Positions 44,431-47,976 of a DNA stretch of 64,000 nucleotides are shown here, one piece after another. Position numbers and translations under genes: made by a program. This DNA is from Fibrobacter sp. (GTDB lineage Bacteria > Fibrobacterota > Fibrobacteria > Fibrobacterales > Fibrobacteraceae): NCBI RefSeq assembly GCF_017551775.1, contig NZ_JAFZKX010000109.1, positions 1-64,000 on the forward strand, read 5' to 3'. Position 1 is the first letter of the stretch. Every line of letters begins with the position of its first letter. The notes under the pieces were generated by a model, which had not been told where the DNA came from, searched no databases, and saw nothing but the letters and a program-made list of their open reading frames with translations.

Positions 44431-45584
44431 TGAAGATGAAGAACCTGTTTGCCATTAGCGCATTTGCCGCATCCCTCTGCTTTGCCGAAGATGCTGCTCC
44501 GGCTGCCGAAGCCACTGAAGTTGCCCAGCCGAGCGTTGTTGAAACCTGCGTTGCCTCGCTCGATGCCGCTGCTAAGGATATTCCTGCGAATGCGATTGCT
44601 GCAAAGTATACTCTTGCCGCCGCCAAGGCTGCCGTCGCTAACCTGGAAGCCGCCTTCAAGGACGATCCTGAATCGGAAGAAACTCAGGCTCTTGCTGCCA
44701 AGTGCGATATCTATGCGAAGATCGTGACGGCCCAGGCCGAAACGCAGAAGTATCGCAACCATACCGCATCGAACTGGGAAAAGCGCGCCGCCACGGCCCG
44801 CTCCATCGAAGCTATCCAGGAACAGATTAGCCAGGCCCGTAGCGGTAAGGTGAACGACCTCGAAGCCGAAAAGGCCAAGATGAAGGACCAGGAAGCCCGC
44901 CTCCAGGCCGAAATGCAGCAGAACCAGGAAAAGTTCCAGGCTGAAGCCGCCGCCAAGGAAGCCGCCCTCAAGGCCGCCAGCGAACGCGAAGCCAACCTCC
45001 AGAAGCAGCAGGCCGACTTGCAGAAGCAGCAGGCTGACCTGCAGAAGCAGCTCGAGGCCGAAAAGAAGGCTCTCGCCGAGGAACGCGCCAAGGCCGAAGC
45101 TCGCCAGGCCGAAGCCATGAACAAGCTGAACGAACTCCAGTCCAAGCTCATCCAGGTGACGAAGGACGCTCGCGGTATTATCCTCTCCATGAGCGATATC
45201 CTGTTCGACGTGAACAAGGCTTCCCTCAAGGCCGACCTCAAGACGAGCCTTGCTAAGGTTGCCGGTATCCTTTCCGTGTACCAGCAGTTCAACGTCTCTA
45301 TTGAAGGTAACACCGACAACACGGGTTCCGAAGAGCACAACATGAAGCTCTCGCAGCAGCGTGCCGACAACGTGATGAAGTTCCTCGTGGACCAGGGTAT
45401 CGACGCTGGCCGCCTTACCGCCAAGGGTCTCGGCATGAGCATGCCGATTGCCGACAACAAGACGAAGGAAGGCCGCCAGAAGAACCGCCGCGTGGACCTC
45501 GTTATCCAGGACAAGGCCCTGCAGCAGAACGTCGAACCGGCTGCCGAAGCTGCTGAACCGGCTGCCGCTCCCGAAGCGAAGTAG
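44430..45584 (+). CDS. OmpA-family protein with long coiled coil
   Basis: This 384-residue exported protein has a signal peptide cleaved after about residue 20 (SLCFAED). A helical region and a Lys/Glu/Gln-rich coiled coil (about residues 125-235) follow, then an OmpA C-terminal peptidoglycan-binding domain (about 250-365). That domain shows DILFDVNKASLKADLKTSL, IEGNTDNTG, LSQQRADNVMKFLVDQGI and NRRVDLVI, including the Asp and Arg that bind diaminopimelate. No beta-barrel is evident, so it is probably periplasmic and tethered by its lipoprotein partner. An Ala/Pro tail ends the protein. Confidence 0.88.
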   Translation: MKMKNLFAISAFAASLCFAEDAAPAAEATEVAQPSVVETCVASLDAAAKDIPANAIAAKYTLAAAKAAVANLEAAFKDDPESEETQALAAKCDIYAKIVTAQAETQKYRNHTASNWEKRAATARSIEAIQEQISQARSGKVNDLEAEKAKMKDQEARLQAEMQQNQEKFQAEAAAKEAALKAASEREANLQKQQADLQKQQADLQKQLEAEKKALAEERAKAEARQAEAMNKLNELQSKLIQVTKDARGIILSMSDILFDVNKASLKADLKTSLAKVAGILSVYQQFNVSIEGNTDNTGSEEHNMKLSQQRADNVMKFLVDQGIDAGRLTAKGLGMSMPIADNKTKEGRQKNRRVDLVIQDKALQQNVEPAAEAAEPAAAPEAK

Positions 45585-45588
45585 TCCT

Positions 45589-45795
45589 ATGGCAAAGACC
45601 GTTACCGCCATGGAGGCGAGGCAGAACTTCGGGAACCTCCTGAACCAAGTCTCGCTCCAGCAGGAAGAAGTCGTAATCGAGCGTGCCGGCAAACCGCTGG
45701 CCCGCCTCGTGAACGTCGACTCCCCGGATCGTGGCGGTAAACTGGACTTCCGCGATATCGGCAAGCTCCCGAACGGAATTTGGGAAGAGCGCTAG
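45589..45795 (+). CDS. Phd/YefM-family antitoxin, apparently orphan
   Basis: This 68-residue protein begins MAKTVTAMEARQNFGNLLNQV and continues VVIERAGKPLARLVNVD, the DNA-binding fold of Phd/YefM antitoxins. The tail DFRDIGKLPNGIWEER would be the toxin-binding segment. It starts 4 bp after the OmpA-family stop, in the same transcript. No toxin gene lies within the following 280 bp, which hold the leucine attenuator. The longer frame from 45448 belongs to the overlapping OmpA gene. Confidence 0.85.
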   Translation: MAKTVTAMEARQNFGNLLNQVSLQQEEVVIERAGKPLARLVNVDSPDRGGKLDFRDIGKLPNGIWEER

Positions 45796-45859
45796 GCCGC
45801 GGGTTTTCTTTGCCTGCGGTGGACTGCGCGGCCCCCTTGCCATATGGCCAGAATCTTTG

Positions 45860-45872
45860 TATATTCTGTAAC
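45860..45872 (+). promoter_or_regulatory. Promoter -10 of the leucine operon, leaderless leader peptide
   Basis: TATATT at 45860-45865 lies 7 nt before the ATG of the leader peptide at 45873. No Shine-Dalgarno sequence separates them, so the leader peptide is probably translated from the very 5' end of the mRNA. Confidence 0.7.
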
Positions 45873-45932
45873 ATGAGAAATATCCTTAACCTTCGACTTC
45901 TACTTAGCATCGCACACGAAGCGAGGTTTTAG
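45873..45932 (+). CDS. leuL: Leucine-rich leader peptide of the leuA attenuator
   Basis: This 19-codon ORF encodes MRNILNLRLLLSIAHEARF. Five of 19 codons are Leu, including three in a row (CTT CTA CTT), as in leader peptides that sense charged tRNA(Leu). It lies 142 bp upstream of leuA and is followed by a terminator at 45973-46004. Stalling at the Leu run would cover the first stem half (45891-45895). The peptide has no similarity to E. coli LeuL beyond Leu richness. Too short for standard gene callers. Confidence 0.82.
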   Translation: MRNILNLRLLLSIAHEARF

Positions 45933-46004
45933 GCTATTTCAAGGATTTACGAATAGGAATTAACTTAAAGCGCCCGCTTCTGATGTGAAGCGGGTTCTTT
46001 TTTG
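45891..46004 (+). promoter_or_regulatory. Transcription attenuator of leuA
   Basis: Three alternative pairings are visible. Region 1:2 is CTTCG (45891-45895) with CGAAG (45917-45921). Region 2:3 is GAAGCG (45918-45923) with CGCTTC (45975-45980). Region 3:4 is CCCGCTTC (45973-45980) with GAAGCGGG (45987-45994), followed by TTCTTTTTT, a strong intrinsic terminator. Regions 1:2 and 2:3 share bases, as do 2:3 and 3:4, so they exclude each other. Low leucine would stall the ribosome on region 1, free 2 to pair with 3 and let leuA be read. Confidence 0.8.
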
Positions 46005-46074
46005 TGGTGAAATGCTATTTTTGAACTGAAAAAAGGAACTTTGCGGCGCATGGAAGCCGGCAAGGAGATGAAAA

Positions 46075-47637
46075 ATGAACGAGAATAAGAACGCAAGACA
46101 ACCCTTCTTTTACGACGTCACGCTGCGCGACGGCAACCAGGCGCTCCCGAAGCCCTGGAACAATGCGCAGAAGAAGGACGTGTACCTGCAGCTGTTGAAG
46201 CTCGGGGTGCAGGGTGCCGAGGTCGGTTTCCCGGCATCGTCTGAAATGGATTTCGAGTCTTGTAAGGAACTGGCGCAGCTCACCGCGAAGATGGCCGAAG
46301 AAGGCGACGAGGTGGCAAAGCGCGTCGTGGTTTCGGGCCTGGCCCGCTGCGTGGAAAGCGATATCCAGCGCTGCTGGGAAGCCGTGCAGTTCGCTCCGCA
46401 TCCGCGTATTCATACCTTCCTCGCGACAAGCCCGCTCTCCATGGAGCACGTGCTGCACCTGACCCCTGAACAGGTCAAGGAGAAGGCGGTTCATTGCGTG
46501 AAGTTCGCGAAGTCGCTCGTGGGCGACAAGGGCGACGTGGAATTCAGCGCCGAGCACTTTGGCGACTGCCTCGAGAATATGGACTTTGTTATCGACGTGC
46601 TGAAGGCCGTGGTCGAAGCCGGTGCGACGACCATCAACCTGCCGAACACGGTGGAACGCTACCGTCCGCTCCTGTACGTGAACCAGATCAAGCAGGTGTA
46701 CGAGGCTCTGCCGAAGGACATCACGATTTCTGTGCACTGCCACAACGACCTGGGCATGGCGACCGCCGCCACCGTCGAAAGTTTCTTCGTGGGTGCGACC
46801 CAGTTGGAAGTTGCCTTGAACGGCCTGGGCGAACGCTGCGGCAACACGAACTTCTACGAAGTCGCTGTCGCGCTGCACAACTCCGGCGTGGATACCGGCC
46901 TGCACATGGAACGCATTTACGAAACGGCCATCCTGATTTCCCAGTGGTCGGGTGTCAACATCTATGCCCGCGCTCCGTTGATCGGCGCCGAGGCCATCGT
47001 GCACCGTAGCGGCATCCACCAGGATGGCGCCAGCAAGACGAAGGACATGAAGAAGGGCGCCTACCGCCCGATCGACTACTCCATCATCGGCCGCCACCAG
47101 AACGACGCCCTGAGCTTCACGAGCCAGAGCGGCCGCACCGCCGTGTACGAGATTATCACGAAGTTCGGCTACAAGATGACGCTCGCCGAAGCTGCCGAAC
47201 TGCAGCCGGTATTGAAGGCCTGCAGCGAGAAGGAAGGCGAACTGAGTGCCGAGCGCGTGCTGGACGTGTTCCGCGAGCAGCGCGTGAACGTGAACGGCCG
47301 CCTGGTGTTCAACAACATCGAGGTCATCCCCGACGAGAACCGCTTCATCTTCCACTTCAAGAAGGACGGCGAGGCGCTGGTGAAGTCCGTGACGGCAGAA
47401 GGCCCCATCGAGGCGGCCCTGATGCTCATGCGCGAAATCGGCATGCCGGTCGAACTCGTGAAGTACCGCCAGCTGGTTGTGCCCGAGAAGGACAAGCTGT
47501 GGGCGGGCCGTGGCCTGAGCCGCATTGTGCTGAAGGCGAACGGAACCGAGGTCGAAGGCCGCGGCGTCTCTAGCGATACGCTCAAGGCGAACATGCGCGC
47601 CCTCTTCGGCGGCGTGAACCTCTTGTACAAGAAGTAG
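46075..47637 (+). CDS. leuA: 2-isopropylmalate synthase
   Basis: LeuA condenses acetyl-CoA with 2-oxoisovalerate in the first committed step of leucine synthesis. The 520-residue protein has FYDVTLRDGNQALPKPWN at the start (metal-binding Asp in LRDG). VHCHNDLGMATAAT (about 220-235) holds the HxH metal ligands, and LNGLGERCGNT (about 243-253) follows. The C-terminal LeuA dimer/regulatory domain (about 400-520) suggests leucine feedback inhibition. AAGGAG lies 7 nt before the ATG. The attenuator with its Leu leader peptide supports leucine as the pathway over homocitrate or citramalate. Confidence 0.92.
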   Translation: MNENKNARQPFFYDVTLRDGNQALPKPWNNAQKKDVYLQLLKLGVQGAEVGFPASSEMDFESCKELAQLTAKMAEEGDEVAKRVVVSGLARCVESDIQRCWEAVQFAPHPRIHTFLATSPLSMEHVLHLTPEQVKEKAVHCVKFAKSLVGDKGDVEFSAEHFGDCLENMDFVIDVLKAVVEAGATTINLPNTVERYRPLLYVNQIKQVYEALPKDITISVHCHNDLGMATAATVESFFVGATQLEVALNGLGERCGNTNFYEVAVALHNSGVDTGLHMERIYETAILISQWSGVNIYARAPLIGAEAIVHRSGIHQDGASKTKDMKKGAYRPIDYSIIGRHQNDALSFTSQSGRTAVYEIITKFGYKMTLAEAAELQPVLKACSEKEGELSAERVLDVFREQRVNVNGRLVFNNIEVIPDENRFIFHFKKDGEALVKSVTAEGPIEAALMLMREIGMPVELVKYRQLVVPEKDKLWAGRGLSRIVLKANGTEVEGRGVSSDTLKANMRALFGGVNLLYKK

Positions 47638-47640
47638 CCT

Positions 47641-47976
47641 ATGCTCGAACCGTTAACCCGCCCCTTTAAAAGGCACTACGACAAGTACCGCGGAAAACTC
47701 GATGGTTTTGTCGGCCCTGTCAAGGAATCCGTGTCCAAGTTGATGGACATGATTCCGAATGGGGAGGCGTTCGCCGGTTCCGAGGATATGGCTGAAGCCG
47801 CCGAAGGTGATGTTGTCAAGTCTGGCTTCAAGGCTAAACTGAAAAACTTCAAGCAGTCTCTCAAGGGCCTCTCCGATTTTCAGAAACTCATCTTGCTGAC
47901 CATCGCAGTCGTGCTCCCTGCGGGAATCCTGATTTCGATTATGGTTGTCGGCTTCATTAAAAAAAGGAAGCGTTAA
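47641..47976 (+). CDS. Small C-tail-anchored membrane protein, unknown
   Basis: This 111-residue protein has a basic amphipathic N-terminal half, an acidic segment (AGSEDMAEAAEGD, about residues 46-58) and one transmembrane helix near the C-terminus (LILLTIAVVLPAGILISIMVVGF). It ends in KKRKR. It starts three bases after the leuA stop, so it is probably co-transcribed and under the leucine attenuator. I do not recognise the family. Confidence 0.65.
   Translation: MLEPLTRPFKRHYDKYRGKLDGFVGPVKESVSKLMDMIPNGEAFAGSEDMAEAAEGDVVKSGFKAKLKNFKQSLKGLSDFQKLILLTIAVVLPAGILISIMVVGFIKKRKR

Follow-up and report, generated by a model that had tools for sequence, protein, structure and literature searches.

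A probable leaderless leucine attenuator upstream of leuA, conserved through most of class Fibrobacteria

The region upstream of leuA in a Fibrobacter sp. genome is very probably a leaderless ribosome-mediated transcription attenuator that senses charged leucyl-tRNA (probability roughly 0.87). It lies in a 64,000-nt stretch of DNA, called the window here. The attenuator is conserved through most of class Fibrobacteria. With a related arrangement found upstream of trpE (see below), it brings Fibrobacterota into the range of ribosome-mediated transcription attenuation, in a form that is conserved class-wide and serves two amino acids.

The elements of the unit are found on the forward strand of the window (45837-46004) in the order TTGCCA, 17 nt, TATATT, 7 nt, ATG, a 19-codon ORF, a 39-nt spacer, a GC-rich hairpin, and a T tract. 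The promoter scan gives the -35 box TTGCCA at 45837..45842, which is kept together with its 17-nt spacer in nearly all genus relatives, and the -10 box TATATT at 45860..45865, which is also supported by the comparison of the genus and the class. The leader peptide ORF (MRNILNLRLLLSIAHEARF, 45873..45932) runs from the ATG at 45873 to a TAG stop codon and is predicted to be leaderless. Segment 1 (AACCTTCGACTTC, 45888..45900; folding and alignment) lies over the Leu codons, and segment 2 (GAAGCGAGGTT, 45918..45928; alignment), at the end of the leader ORF, can have either segment 1 or segment 3 as its partner. The hairpin scan and the alignment identify segment 3 (GCCCGCTTC, 45972..45980) as the 5' arm of the terminator, with segment 2 as its alternative (antiterminator) partner, and segment 4 (GAAGCGGGT, 45987..45995) as the 3' arm. 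The T tract of the intrinsic terminator follows at 45996..46004 (hairpin scan). In the region 45500-46200, TTGCCA-17-TATATT is the sole promoter-like site (10/12 matches in the promoter scan), and the sole terminator-like hairpin is the one at 45972-45995, followed by TCTTTTTTG.

The regulated gene, leuA (46075..47637, forward strand), is preceded by the Shine-Dalgarno (SD) sequence AAGGAG (46062..46067), which is read from the sequence and the SD comparison. The leuA product scores over the curated cut-off of NF042434 (LeuA2 subtype 2-isopropylmalate synthase), and its closest relatives in named records come from Fibrobacter metagenome-assembled genomes and Fibrobacter succinogenes, which confirms the genus assignment of the window. 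The gene thus serves to make leucine, the amino acid enriched in the leader ORF upstream. A Phd-family antitoxin gene (TIGR01552, about 45590-45796) is located directly 5' of the attenuator, with no partner toxin gene between the two. On the 3' side, 3 nt past leuA, the window encodes a 111-aa protein (47641-47976) that has no NCBIfam match and possibly belongs to the same operon.

A LeuA match was found in 61/61 genomes of the genus sample, a few of these being a fragment or a distant paralogue, and 56 leuA upstream regions, including that of the window, were readable. All 56 have the Leu-rich ORF, segment 2, and the terminator. The first-pass annotation had described a 19-residue ORF with five Leu codons, a terminator, and leuA; every one of these is present in the window, and the layout is kept in 56/56 genus regions. 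Loss of the Leu codons or stems in close relatives, which that annotation had raised as evidence against an attenuator, is seen in none of the 56. The promoter, by the pattern used (TTG...-17-...-10), is found in 54/56 regions, and a 55th (L016) has TTGCCA-17-TATTAT with the ATG ten nt away. Two horse-gut Fibrobacter loci (L057 and L115) keep the leader and the terminator and have no clear TTGCCA-TATATT promoter or -10 box at the usual distance.

The phylum sweep covered 40 further leuA upstream regions, and 31 of them have the unit, 3 within the genus and 28 elsewhere. The latter come from genera g3 and g5-g11 of the same family, family f2 of the same order, and families f3 and f4 of the class. 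Within the class but outside the genus, 28/35 regions have the unit. In the remaining seven, from genera g2 and g4 (L092-L096, L099, and L100; 65-68% identity), both the Leu leader and the terminator are missing, apparently through loss of the leuA attenuator within the same family. In L097 and L101 the sequence ends too near leuA for the presence of the unit to be judged. Outside the phylum, no Leu leader is found at three more distant relatives of LeuA (L242-L244, 50-53% identity). Since the Leu-rich ORF, the terminator, and the pairing of segments 2 and 3 (2:3) recur in 87/87 analyzed leaders across the class, the unit is not a product of chance. Terminators 5' of genes are common, and the hairpin could be read as the plain terminator of an upstream unit, with a small ORF formed by chance and the leuA promoter lying downstream. 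This reading is hardly credible: the whole unit recurs in those 87 leaders, and the scan finds no other promoter between the terminator and leuA.

The five Leu codons of the leader ORF are CUU, CUU, CUU, CUA, and CUU. In the 87 leaders 26% of residues are Leu, and 85 of them contain at least four. CUA makes up 86/212 of the leader Leu codons in the genus and 43/135 in other genera (37% overall), and 83/87 leaders have at least one. In ordinary genes it is very rare: 1/1398 Leu codons (0.1%) in 30 genus leuA genes and 1/165 in four genes of the window. A rare cognate codon would be the expected choice for a sensor that works by stalling. The leader of E. coli leuL also has a run of regulatory codons that includes the rare CUA. 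Leader length and the tail of the peptide vary across the class, and the Leu codons, the rare CUA included, are retained.

Folding of the 151-nt leader gives -43 kcal/mol compared with -31.2 +/- 3.9 for shuffled sequences (z = -3.0). Among 40 aligned genus leaders, 100% of the 240 cells of the 2:3 pairing are paired and 15 cells are changed on both sides; none of 500 shuffles is as high in percentage paired or in covariation score. When the partner is slid by one to three columns, pairing falls to 37-60%. Note that within the genus these double changes are confined to one of the six pairs, i.e., to one covarying position. At the class level segments 2 and 3 change together, giving the pair types GAAGCG/CGCTTC, GGAGCG/CGCTCC, GGAGTG/CACTCC, and GGCGGGTT/AACCCGCC. 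The 3:4 terminator pairing holds in 90% of cells in the 40 genus leaders and has no covariation because its arms hardly vary. The 1:2 pairing holds in 94.8% of cells in the same leaders; since its covariation is not above that of shuffles, 1:2 as a protector pairing is plausible but unproven. The covariation expected of the stems by the first-pass annotation is therefore seen for 2:3 and not for the other two. That annotation had also called the three pairings mutually exclusive. While 2:3 does exclude both 1:2 and 3:4, the latter two coexist, and in the folding test the free RNA folds as 1:2 and 3:4 together.

Masking parts of the RNA in the folding test gives the other predicted states. With segment 1 masked and segment 4 not yet made, 2:3 forms (-17.3 kcal/mol), and with segment 2 masked, 3:4 forms (-19.7 kcal/mol). 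If segment 1 is masked and the RNA is taken to equilibrium, 3:4 is still favored over 2:3; antitermination must therefore depend on kinetics, as is believed of other attenuators. Across the leaders, the start of segment 2 ranges from about 30 nt upstream to 10 nt downstream of the last base of the stop codon and is mostly 14-24 nt upstream, a position that would be covered by a ribosome at the stop.

These features suggest the following course of events. RNA polymerase would begin at the leader ATG or no more than a few bases away, giving an RNA on whose 5'-terminal AUG a ribosome would load without an SD sequence. When leucine is short, the ribosome would stall on the run of CUU and CUA codons, covering segment 1 and leaving segment 2 free. 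The freed segment 2 would pair with segment 3 ahead of the synthesis of segment 4, so that the terminator is prevented and transcription continues into leuA. When leucine is plentiful, the ribosome would run on to the stop codon, which adjoins segment 2, and cover that segment, and 3:4 would terminate transcription. In an untranslated leader 1:2 would form, again leaving 3:4 free to terminate.

A leaderless start is suggested by the spacing of the promoter and by the SD comparison. In 45/59 genus leaders the best -10-like hexamer of the 36 nt upstream is separated by 7 nt from the ATG; in most of the 28 non-genus leaders the same scan gives a distance of 6 or 7 nt. At least one hexamer with at least four matches is found 5-8 nt from the ATG in 52/59 genus leaders and in 28/28 others, the means for shuffled sequences being 5.4 and 3.8. 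Among the other genus leaders, several contain two or three in-frame ATGs close together, of which the scan took a different one. An SD 4-mer precedes only 1/87 leader ATGs compared with 86/87 leuA starts. On these comparisons a leaderless reading of the leader ORF, with the RNA predicted to begin at 45873 or no more than a few nt from it, is well supported. The initial remark that the leader lacks an SD sequence and has TATATT 7 nt from its ATG is thus true of the window, and a -10 box 6-7 nt away is found in nearly all leaders.

Transcription might instead begin further upstream, which would leave a leucine attenuator whose leader ORF has a 5' leader and no SD sequence. Read-through from the phd-type gene described above is possible in principle. 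This variant is unlikely, however, as families whose upstream sequences differ share the promoter 6-7 nt from the ATG, and no conserved ribosome-binding site is found 5' of the leader, whereas leuA keeps one. An RNA starting at or very near the leader ATG is the preferred reading for the leuA unit.

Another example of this design is found upstream of trpE, where there is apparently a tryptophan attenuator that also looks leaderless. In one Fibrobacter locus (L132, G000:C8), trpE is preceded by TTGCCA, 17 nt, TAATTT, 6 nt, ATG, the leader MVNATSTIFNRRWWRGL, and a terminator. Upstream regions of trpE were compared for 50 loci (related loci L133-L182) from the genus, other genera, and family f2. 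A leader with Trp-Trp or Trp-Trp-Trp, whose in-frame ATG follows a -10-like hexamer at 6-8 nt, is present in 48/50, a count that is looser than that for leu in that the scan picked the best ATG and took 3/6 matches. No SD 4-mer precedes any of the 48 Trp leaders. No Trp-Trp leader was found in the other two regions, both from Fibrobacter (L140 and L141). Of other amino acid genes, ilvB has a TTGCCA-TATATT promoter and a 5' UTR of about 45 nt with neither a leader ORF nor a terminator, and hisG sits within an operon; attenuation is therefore not found at every operon.

The trpE leaders bear on whether the leuA terminator could be controlled by a protein or a ligand (a T-box, a riboswitch, or an RNA-binding protein) with the small ORF being incidental. 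A structured leader followed by a terminator would suit such systems as well. This is very unlikely, as Leu codons, even the rare CUA, are kept where leader length and tail vary, and trpE has the matching design with Trp-Trp in place of Leu. In addition, the leader has no Rfam match at gathering score and no credible family at E up to 10, Leu_leader included. Thr_leader, L10_leader, and PyrR gave weak matches far under the cut-off.

As a leucine attenuator, the leuA unit is a switch of a known kind. Like the proteobacterial leu, ilv, and trp attenuators (E. coli leuL type), it has a leader ORF with regulatory codons, segments for the pairings 2:3, 3:4, and a putative 1:2, and an intrinsic terminator, and as with leuL the gene it precedes is leuA. 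Unlike that type, the Fibrobacter leader matches no Rfam leader family, is without an SD sequence, and apparently begins right where the RNA does. The LEU element of Actinobacteria also has a Leu-rich leader ORF 5' of leuA; however, it is based on a pseudoknot in which the Leu codons pair with the SD box of leuA (PMC1262725), whereas Fibrobacter has a terminator hairpin and a T tract. Small upstream ORFs of mycobacteria have regulatory codons, and leaderless transcripts are common in that group, but their codons are for cysteine and their role in attenuation has been termed speculative (PMC4633059). Leaderless attenuator leaders are already known, since in Sinorhizobium meliloti the attenuator RNA of trpL (rnTrpL) starts directly at the leader peptide ATG (PMC7298713). 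The Fibrobacter unit is probably a transcription attenuator of the same leaderless type; trpL senses Trp, precedes trpE(G), and belongs to another phylum.

Naville and Gautheret (2010) stated that they knew of leader-peptide systems only in Proteobacteria and Actinobacteria, to which they added Firmicutes (PMC2965389). The first-pass annotation knew of no description from Fibrobacterota, and likewise nothing relevant on attenuation or leader peptides in Fibrobacter was found in a literature search that had most subscription papers outside its reach. The presence of attenuators in Fibrobacterota, their class-wide conservation, and their consistently leaderless design are apparently undescribed until now, and what is unusual is the consistency of this design across a clade. 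One may tentatively go further: leu and trp attenuators of Fibrobacteria might use leaderless leaders as a rule, with the leaderless start selected rather than a by-product of a genome in which leaderless genes are numerous. If so, ribosome loading on the nascent 5' AUG would replace SD initiation in coupling the ribosome to the polymerase. The 87 leu and 48 trp leaders constitute a large natural series of apparently leaderless attenuators, suited to asking how ribosome and polymerase are synchronized when the ribosome must load at the 5' end.

Leaderless starts seem to be in ordinary use in this genome. A whole-genome search for a promoter, seven nt, and an ATG (promoter-N7-ATG) gave ten sites, compared with three in the reversed control. 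Besides the leuA leader, six sites start ORFs of 89-340 codons exactly at that ATG, and these genes have no room for a 5' UTR between promoter and ATG. Such ordinary use would support the leaderless reading of the leuA leader, yet it makes the leader less special. It also points to leaderless genes as an ordinary feature of important cellulose-degrading gut bacteria. Fibrobacteria are listed in a table of classes by anti-SD type (PMC10783764), in line with the SD sequence before leuA. The promoter-N7-ATG sites at starts of protein-coding ORFs are at 1149-1187 of the window (with the ORF that follows) and at L120, L122, L123, L124, and L126. The apparently leaderless genes include one for a putative GTP-cyclohydrolase-like protein, named from its sequence (L123), and those for paralogous 277-aa proteins (L118 and L122).
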